30,378 bases of DNA, from IMG/VR virus record IMGVR_UViG_3300027852_000136, positions 1-30,378 of that record. The stretch is one strand, 5' to 3'. Position 1 is the stretch's first letter. Every line of letters starts with the position of its first letter. This DNA comes from a virus. A program made the position numbers and the translations under genes. The notes below the pieces were generated by a model. It was not told where the DNA came from. It made no database searches and saw only the letters and a list, made by a program, of their open reading frames with translations. Positions 2,172 through 30,362 of the stretch are shown here, in pieces.

Positions 2172-2178
2172 ATTTATT

Positions 2179-2206
2179 ACCCCTATTTTCACCCCTATTT
2201 TTACCC
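2179..2206. repeat. 12-bp AT-rich tandem repeats (2.3 copies)
   Basis: ACCCCTATTTTC (2179-2190) is followed immediately by ACCCCTATTTTT (2191-2202) and then ACCC (2203-2206). These head-to-tail 12-mers lie about 65 bases before the DnaA-box-like array. They resemble the AT-rich repeats that melt first in bacterial and plasmid origins, but that role is inference. Confidence 0.65.
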
Positions 2207-2265: not shown

Positions 2266-2294
2266 TTGACTGTGTATAACTCTGTGGATAACAT
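2266..2294 (+). promoter_or_regulatory. Possible sigma70-like promoter overlapping the repeat array
   Basis: TTGACT (2266-2271), a 17-base spacer, then TAACAT (2289-2294) gives a five-of-six -35 and a moderate -10. It would drive the small terminase and the structural genes. Because the DnaA-box-like repeats overlap both elements, any protein bound to the array should also affect this promoter. Confidence 0.4.
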
Positions 2295-2324
2295 ATGTAT
2301 AACTTATGTATAACTCTGGACAAC
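2271..2324 (+). repeat. Phased array of DnaA-box-like repeats
   Basis: TGTGTATAAC (2271), TGTGGATAAC (2283), TATGTATAAC (2294) and TATGTATAAC (2305) are followed by a degenerate TCTGGACAAC (2315). Starts are 12, 11, 11 and 10 bases apart, close to one helical turn, so all would face the same side of the DNA. TGTGGATAA is the exact complement of the consensus DnaA box TTATCCACA. The first copy differs from it at one base and the next two at two. The array ends three bases before the small terminase start. It could bind DnaA, a terminase small subunit or a repressor. Confidence 0.65.
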
Positions 2325-2327
2325 ATA

Positions 2328-2834
2328 ATGACAGCGGGAAGACCTACAAAATATAGAGAGGACTTTTGTGATAAAGTTATTGAGCTTGGGAAAGCGGGCA
2401 AAACCCAAGTTCAAATAGCTTCAGAATTGGATATTTGTGAAGATTCTTTATATGAATATATGAAGAAATTTCCTAAATTCTCCGAGGCTATAAAAAAAGC
2501 AAGTCAGTTCTGTGAAGCGTTTATGCTTAATCTTATGCAACATAACCTTGTTGATTCAAATATAAATACTGCAGGATGGATGATCATCATGCGTAATAAA
2601 TTTGGGTACCACAATAAGCAATATGATCAACAAAAAGATAATGCCTCTATCAGAAAACTTGTTTCAGTTGATCCAATTGAACAAATAAGAGAAGTCATTG
2701 CTCAATATGTTAACAAACAGATCTCATTAGATACTGCTGAACGATCGATTAAGATACTTGCAGTACTTCTTAATGATGAAGATAGAAAACGCGTTGAAGG
2801 ACTCTTATTGGCTGTACAAGAAATTAATAAATAA
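2328..2834 (+). CDS. terS: Terminase small subunit, DNA-binding
   Basis: Start set at ATG 2328 giving MTAGRPTKYREDF, the typical opening of phage small terminases; the frame extends to an ATG at 2295, but that lies inside the repeat array. Residues about 22-52 form a helix-turn-helix (GKTQVQIASELDICEDSLYEYMK), followed by helical packing segments. The signature AGWMIIMRNKFGYHNK near residues 82-97 matches the conserved W-x-x-x-M-K-N-x-F-G-W/Y element of this family. In the family it forms a ring that recognises packaging DNA and stimulates the large subunit. No strong ribosome-binding site is visible. The large subunit lies 16 kb downstream. The repeat array directly upstream is a candidate target. 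Confidence 0.82.
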   Translation: MTAGRPTKYREDFCDKVIELGKAGKTQVQIASELDICEDSLYEYMKKFPKFSEAIKKASQFCEAFMLNLMQHNLVDSNINTAGWMIIMRNKFGYHNKQYDQQKDNASIRKLVSVDPIEQIREVIAQYVNKQISLDTAERSIKILAVLLNDEDRKRVEGLLLAVQEINK

Positions 2835-17411: not shown

Positions 17412-18638
17412 ATGAGCGTTAATGACGAAGGATCAAGAGAACAGCTAGAGGTTCAGGCTTCACAAACTGTGTTTCCGTTCCCTTTTAGAATATTCACAGA
17501 GAATGGGTTAAAAGTTTATTGGGTTGATTCAAGTGATGTATCTACATTACTAACCTATTCAACAGATTATACCTTAACGGGTATAAACGATAACAATGGT
17601 GGTACAGTCACATTGACTGGTTCTGTTGCTGTACAGACAGGTGATGTTATTATTCTTCAAAGAGATGAAGCAAATAACAAGCCTCCTGAATATGATTATG
17701 AGAATCGAGCTGATTTTACGCCTCAATTATTAGATGAAAATACTGATAAGCAGTTTGTATTAATTCAACAAATAAATGATAAGATTGATGATCGAGCATT
17801 GTTGTACCCAGAAGATGTTGTACTATATAATACTCAAAGGGAAATGCCTGTTTTAAACCATCAAGAAGTGTGGGTTGGTGGTTCAAATAATAATATTGTG
17901 GCTTTAGAATTAAGTGAAGATGTAAGTTGTAGTACATTACGATCAGATTTGTTACAAAACTCTTCTGATAGCAATAGTGGTGCAACAAATGTTGGATATT
18001 ATGACACTGAAGATTCTCCAGCAGAAACAACAGTTCATGCAAAGCTTAAATCCATGCATGGGTTTTTGCCTCCAATATCATCTGATATAGCCGTTGTTAA
18101 AGATGCAACTCATAACGATAAGTTATTAAAGTTTGACTTAACGACATTGTCATTGTCAACAACAAGAACAATAACAATGCCTGATAATGATGTTTCTCTT
18201 GCTTATGCAACAGAGACAGAGCCAGGATTAACAGAGATAGCAACACAGGCAGAGGTTGATGCTGGTACAGATGATACGAAGTATGTAACACCTCTAACTT
18301 TAAAAAATTCAACACACGTGGAGACAACTGATATGTTCGCTTTTGCTAATTACGGAGTCGGAGCAATTTTACATGGTGAAAAAAACTTAAGTGTTGCTAA
18401 ATACAATGACCCAACATATGGTTTTCAGTATTTAGTTTATACCTTTGATACACCTAGAACAGATTCTGATTATGTTGTTATTCTTGATCTTAATAATAGT
18501 AATCGAACTATTGAACCTTTAATGTGGGCAAGCACCTATACTGCTGGCGGATTTAGAGTTTATTTCGATCAAGCTACATTGGCTGGAACTGAGACTATAG
18601 ATCATATGGTTAGGGTTTATGCTGACTCAGCATCATGA
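17412..18638 (+). CDS. Tail fibre, T7 gp17-like N-terminal anchor
   Basis: 408 residues after a GAGGT site. Residues 1-135 match the T7 tail-fibre N-terminal domain that attaches fibres to the tail: VFPFPFRIFTENGLKVYWVD, a Gly-Gly-Thr-Val beta element, VIILQRDEAN, and a YDYENRADFTPQLLDENTDK trimer linker. Residues about 250-300 hold the TITMPDNDVS ... GLTEIATQAEVDAGTDD element typical of fibre shafts. The C-terminal 100 residues form a short beta domain. The same shaft plus C-terminal domain recurs in the gene at 20522. Its stop overlaps the large terminase start. It is short for a receptor-binding fibre, so it may be an adaptor for the larger fibres downstream. Confidence 0.85.
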   Translation: MSVNDEGSREQLEVQASQTVFPFPFRIFTENGLKVYWVDSSDVSTLLTYSTDYTLTGINDNNGGTVTLTGSVAVQTGDVIILQRDEANNKPPEYDYENRADFTPQLLDENTDKQFVLIQQINDKIDDRALLYPEDVVLYNTQREMPVLNHQEVWVGGSNNNIVALELSEDVSCSTLRSDLLQNSSDSNSGATNVGYYDTEDSPAETTVHAKLKSMHGFLPPISSDIAVVKDATHNDKLLKFDLTTLSLSTTRTITMPDNDVSLAYATETEPGLTEIATQAEVDAGTDDTKYVTPLTLKNSTHVETTDMFAFANYGVGAILHGEKNLSVAKYNDPTYGFQYLVYTFDTPRTDSDYVVILDLNNSNRTIEPLMWASTYTAGGFRVYFDQATLAGTETIDHMVRVYADSAS

Positions 18639-29885: not shown

Positions 29886-30362
29886 TTATTTAATTATTAG
29901 TGATTTGATTTTAATGAGTTCTGCTCCATCTATAATTTCTCCATTCTTAAGATCAGCCTTAAGTATTTTCTTAGAGAGCTCTTTTTTAATGACAAAGTAC
30001 TTATCATCAATGATGAGCTCATCAGTTATCTTAACTGACGCAGGATTATTCCTTATTTTTGCAGAATGTACTGCATTCCCAACTTCTTTAATCCCTATTT
30101 TTTCTAAATTTTGTAATAAATATCTCTTAATACTCTCTATTTTCTTTTCTACAGACTTTCTTTTCTTAATAAGCCTATCTGTTTCTTTTTTAATTGCGTT
30201 AGAGTCAGCGCCCAAATTCTTTAAATAAGCAATTATTCCAACTGACTTTACCTCGAAGTCTCCTTCAAGAGATTCAAGCGTGTCAAAGTATGCTTGTTCG
30301 CTTATATCGTCATCATATTCAATACTCAGTATTGAATTACTTATTTCATATAGATTTGTCAT
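29886..30362 (-). CDS. Gp157-family phage protein
   Basis: 158 residues with GGAAG before ATG at 30360-30362. The sequence follows the Gp157 pattern: an N-terminal LYEISNSIL helix, YFDTLESLEGDFEVKSVGII, NAIKKETDRLIKKRKSVEKK as a long coiled coil, IESIKRYLLQNLEKIGIKEV, and then a C-terminal beta part with NPASVKITDEL and DDKYFVIKKE. Family members occur in early recombination/replication clusters of many phages and were linked to phage resistance in Streptococcus thermophilus. Biochemical role is unclear. Its presence suggests the early module begins or continues beyond the right edge. Confidence 0.85.
   Translation of the reverse strand: MTNLYEISNSILSIEYDDDISEQAYFDTLESLEGDFEVKSVGIIAYLKNLGADSNAIKKETDRLIKKRKSVEKKIESIKRYLLQNLEKIGIKEVGNAVHSAKIRNNPASVKITDELIIDDKYFVIKKELSKKILKADLKNGEIIDGAELIKIKSLIIK

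Follow-up and report, generated by a model that had tools for sequence, protein, structure and literature searches.

An oriC-like array of five DnaA boxes before the small terminase gene of a tailed phage: a predicted host-DnaA platform and candidate replication origin

The IMG/VR virus record analysed here (the window, 30,378 bases, probably an incomplete genome) carries an array of DnaA-box repeats at 2271-2324, immediately before the gene of its small terminase subunit (TerS). Judged from its sequence, the array is very probably bound by host DnaA. The further reading, that it is a directional host-DnaA-binding element like the left half of E. coli oriC and most likely the origin of the phage, is given about an even chance. 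A DnaA-dependent origin was among the options raised by the first-pass annotation: predicted DnaA binding gains support from the box consensus, from counterparts in bacterial oriC and from variation at positions where DnaA is tolerant, and origin use is the likeliest role, though only as an inference, since the phage has no close relative and the window is incomplete. To our knowledge, few tailed phages begin replication via host DnaA, and literature searches turned up no description of such an array next to a gene for a small terminase, nor of any in Autographiviridae.

The array consists of five head-to-tail 10-mers on the same strand: TGTGTATAAC at 2271, TGTGGATAAC at 2283, TATGTATAAC at 2294 and again at 2305, and TCTGGACAAC at 2315. 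Direct reading bears out the coordinates and spacings originally described, four 10-bp repeats plus a degenerate fifth at steps of 12, 11, 11 and 10 bases, and the array does abut the small terminase gene, its last base falling 4 bases short of the TerS ATG at 2328. The description of one repeat as an exact complement of the DnaA box was right as to exactness but not as to number, since the first two copies both match the reverse complement of the DnaA consensus TTATNCACA without error; the third and fourth each depart from it at one position and the fifth at two. Strong and weak sites in one orientation, clustered with helical phasing, make this an array of the oriC type. The features of the region are:

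2056-2327, no strand: non-coding stretch carrying the array, between a 73-aa ORF (1834-2055) and TerS
2177-2204, plus strand: two AT-rich 12-bp tandem repeats (ACCCCTATTTTC/T), 11/12 identical, candidate only
2271-2279, minus strand: DnaA box 1, TTATACACA, exact, R2-type (like E. coli R2)
2283-2291, minus strand: DnaA box 2, TTATCCACA, exact, R1/R4-type (like E. coli R1/R4)
2294-2302, minus strand: weak DnaA box 3, TTATACATA, one mismatch, a variant also present in the L015 and L154 arrays
2305-2313, minus strand: weak DnaA box 4, TTATACATA, one mismatch
2315-2323, minus strand: degenerate copy 5, TTGTCCAGA, two mismatches (compare TTTGGGGACAAC in L154)
2328-2834, plus strand: small terminase subunit TerS, 168 aa, the downstream neighbour (phrog_309, E 4e-21)

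TerS is followed by portal, scaffold, capsid and tail genes, and the large terminase gene (TerL) is located at 18635. About 100 bp to the left of the array is an imperfect palindrome (AACTTACAGTCTGCGCCGTAGAATGTAAGTT, 2141-2171), and the 16-base near-repeats TGCCAAACCACGAAAA and TGACAAACCACAGAAA (2098-2134), 21 bp or two helical turns apart, are a possible regulator site. At the right end of the window, a minus-strand gene for a Siphovirus Gp157/Gam-like protein (29886-30362) begins a truncated leftward early module.

Clustering of this kind is rare by chance: at least four boxes (up to one mismatch, one strand) within 35 starts occurred in none of 2000 first-order Markov shuffles of the window, and two exact boxes equally close occurred in four of the 2000. 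Scored as a four-copy repeat phased at 10-12 bp, the array reaches 27 of 30, and the rest of the 30 kb is always below 25. A pair of strict TTATNCACA boxes set exactly 5 bases apart had no match in the window's own record, because the spacing of the array differs.

The array itself was the sole match in a blastn search with the region, in a Berlinvirus and a microvirus. Triple TGTGGATAACT arrays at 11-13 bp steps were found in 54 viral contigs, and a control pattern with one base altered in each box was found in none; the reversed two-box pattern was absent from all 46 records examined, and no viral contig had precisely the combination of weak boxes seen in the window. Non-consensus copies, compared over their first nine bases, vary mainly at positions 2 (G to A) and 5 (G to T or A) of the 10-mer, and the variants of the window (G2>A, G5>T) fall at positions where DnaA boxes vary. 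Bacterial genomes yielded 87 matches to the array, and the 145 ORFs neighbouring 80 bacterial array loci (L155-L234) include 27 matches to the DnaA C-terminal domain and 14 to DnaN, tallies of ORFs rather than loci in a collection whose loci are not independent samples; on account of these neighbours, the array type is a standard component of oriC. Thirteen of the ORFs flanking these bacterial arrays encode NusA, and nusA may have a conserved DnaA site that serves in regulation or titration. Another array is flanked by rpe and a phosphatase gene in a record filed as Acinetobacter phage MD-2021a, the genes of which are apparently chromosomal (L063:4001-4058), and arrays like it occur in further A. 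baumannii records.

In the mechanism proposed for an origin, DnaA would nucleate on the two strong boxes at the left, and the three weaker boxes, at steps of 10-12 bp, would let it grow into a head-to-tail filament. Head-to-tail oligomers of DnaA are favoured where the boxes are directional (PMC10316083), and weak DnaA sites extend from strong ones (PMC4285127). The filament could then open AT-rich DNA to its left (approximately 2060-2270) and load the host helicase, and replication would start at the array. The DNA to be opened is placed to the left of the array, at 2056-2270, because the boxes have the polarity seen in the left half of E. coli oriC. The 12-bp repeats at 2177-2204 are on the side expected for an E. 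coli-type unwinding element, and the GC-skew minimum of the window and a divergence of gene blocks are located just left of the array, the skew being confounded with gene strand. Against an origin stand the ordinary duplex stability of the region (the least stable stretches at 2050-2330 are at about the 10th percentile of the AT-rich window, which is not exceptional), the lack of a nearby replication or initiator gene (none was recognised among the scanned window proteins, in a record that is probably not a whole genome), the lack of the array in distant portal and TerS relatives, and the similar arrays of T5-like and Berlinvirus phages, which are found within or close to terminal repeats and not at known origins.

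Families encoded upstream of arrays in other phages include helicases, primases and initiators. In three phage contigs the array is within the replication initiator gene, the product of which matches Phage_rep_O (Pfam) and O-like PHROGs in L007, and replication-initiation and DnaD-like helicase-loader PHROGs in L022 and L043; this placement parallels that of the lambda origin, which sits within gene O. The array is downstream of a gene for a VapE-like helicase/primase in L008, an arrangement shared by L026, and comes after or overlaps the Rep gene in microviruses, one of which has five exact boxes at steps of 12, 12, 11 and 11 after Rep. An array of varying copy number precedes the terminase genes in L015, L029 and L154, and the boxes have been kept between L154 and L015/L029 while most of the flanking sequence diverged (the TerL proteins of L015 and L154 are 76% identical). 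L015 and L154 carry the weak TATGTATAAC copy, and L154 also carries a GGGGACAAC copy resembling the fifth copy of the window; L154 was retrieved with a pattern requiring a TATGNATAAC copy, and L015 was found also without that requirement. Directly after the array in all three contigs is a G-rich run (L015:3450-3475, L029:10390-10410, L154:2385-2400).

Searches by way of TerS and portal identified no close relatives of the window phage. Its portal protein is 24-28% identical to those of the nearest isolates, Vibrio and Pelagibacter podoviruses of 32-36 kb (22-29% for portal relatives overall, none of which has the array), and its TerS is about 30% like that of Vibrio siphoviruses and up to about 40% (39-42%) over parts of environmental homologues. 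The label T7-like, applied earlier, suits the podovirus-type portal but not the gene order, in which TerS comes first and TerL is past the tail genes, unlike T7. No DnaA-box cluster was found in the 80 portal loci and 80 TerS loci fetched, where exact boxes are at or below chance density, and none of 18 inspected regions upstream of TerS relatives has a comparable repeat. Conservation of the array in relatives with the flanking genes retained, a comparison proposed in the first-pass annotation, was therefore negative, with only distant relatives to compare; the array goes with the lineage of neither TerS nor portal, since 0/80 relatives of each carry it. Stand-alone DnaA box-binding domains (PF08299, in frames of 89-190 aa) are encoded by 11 of 50 portal/TerS relatives (L005:8307-8828, G059, G065, G069, G072, G077, G078, G080, G089, G090 and G098), including the four 34-36 kb IMG/VR portal relatives and Pelagibacter phage HTVC035P; none of these 11 records showed a DnaA-box cluster, and the proteins might block or redirect host DnaA. 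The idea that arrays accompany phage-encoded DnaA-domain proteins was rejected, because proteins over the cut-off are present in 2/48 contigs with an array versus 11/50 relatives without one, which is no positive link.

Other functions of the array can be envisioned. The TerS encoded at 2328 could recognise the phased repeats as a pac or cos site, as the first-pass annotation, which named a repressor operator as its third option, also suggested; such sites often lie beside terS, as the array does, and helically phased repeats would fit a TerS in the form of a ring. This option found no support and is very improbable indeed: a conserved TerS recognition site is disfavoured because the array follows neither lineage, being absent from all 80 TerS and all 80 portal relatives, and the repeat is an exact match to DnaA boxes and is found again next to genes of other kinds. 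It is quite unlikely that the array serves to control expression, although DnaA is a known transcription factor and, spread over 2271-2324, would cover both a weak promoter-like site overlapped by the array (TTGACT-17-TAACAT, 2266-2294) and the start of terS 4 bases beyond it, repressing or timing the terminase. Promoter-like sites in the region are no commoner than chance (4, versus 4.9 expected from shuffles), and in L015 and L029 a strong sigma-70-like promoter is located about 300 bp past the array.

Sequestration of host DnaA by multi-copy phage DNA, which would halt new rounds of host chromosome replication and free replisomes and nucleotides with no initiation at the array, would account for the recurrence of arrays in unrelated phage types, including T5-like phages and Berlinviruses, which would seem to need no origin that depends on DnaA. 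Berlinviruses are relatives of T7-like phages and have an RNA polymerase and a replisome of their own. Titration of DnaA has been proposed for a region near the E. coli origin that is dense in DnaA boxes (PMC12371093). The two strong boxes of the window are few for titration, however, and arrays within initiator genes and adjoining dnaA point to initiation, which makes titration unlikely as the function of the array. The array might also mark the entering or packaged end of the genome and be a target of DnaA while the DNA enters the cell, like the injection stop signal (ISS) of T5, which is reported to contain DnaA boxes (PMC13250531). Consistent with this role, T5-like and Berlinvirus arrays are in or near terminal repeats, those of Berlinviruses between terL and the early genes. 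TerL could be located in 27 contigs, and the array is within 3.5 kb of it in 19 of them on a circular map (11.75 expected, p ~5e-4, with a limit chosen after the positions had been viewed and with many contigs being fragments), and 20 of the 27 are co-oriented with it. Proximity is weak in linear coordinates (13 versus 9.5 expected, p 0.06), so that the association with TerL is suggestive only. A genome-end element is decidedly improbable.

A broader proposal, unlikely as it stands, is that many unrelated tailed phages independently placed oriC-type arrays by packaging genes or terminal repeats, where host DnaA would link the onset of replication to the ends used in entry or packaging (or stop host replication); the window would be the member with a layout like the left half of E. 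coli oriC. If the preferred reading of the array as a host-DnaA platform and likely origin is true, five boxes beside terS, an array with counterparts across many unrelated phages, would offer direct access to the ways in which phages exploit or inactivate the initiator of the host, and may help to account for the DnaA boxes described at the genome ends of T5-like phages.

Among known systems, the arrays of L015, L029 and L154 are like that of the window in preceding a small TerS-like ORF and TerL, and in the weak copy shared with L015 and L154, but are followed by the G-run and the strong sigma-70-like promoter, and their terminase proteins are unrelated to those of the window. Berlinviruses A7, nasanit, P483 and NJ2 also have helically phased TGTGGATAACT-like copies near packaging genes, but more of them, after terL (at the genome terminus in A7) rather than before terS, and with no flanking homologues of the window. 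The injection stop signal and terminal-repeat arrays of T5-like phages likewise place DnaA boxes in phage non-coding DNA, with array-like copies in terminal repeats, but belong to a different phage type. The bacterial oriC of the dnaA-dnaN type (L155-L234) has the same box, as tandem TGTGGATAACT copies, at the same head-to-tail spacing of 11-12 bp; the copies of the window are more degenerate (two exact, two weak, one very weak), with no dnaA gene nearby. Compared with E. coli oriC, the array belongs to a phage, beside terS, and is more regular in its steps, and neither a distinctive 13-mer unwinding element nor a GATC cluster was found; with the left half of that origin (DUE, R1, weak boxes) it shares boxes on the same strand, strong then weak, in the same polarity to the presumed unwinding side.
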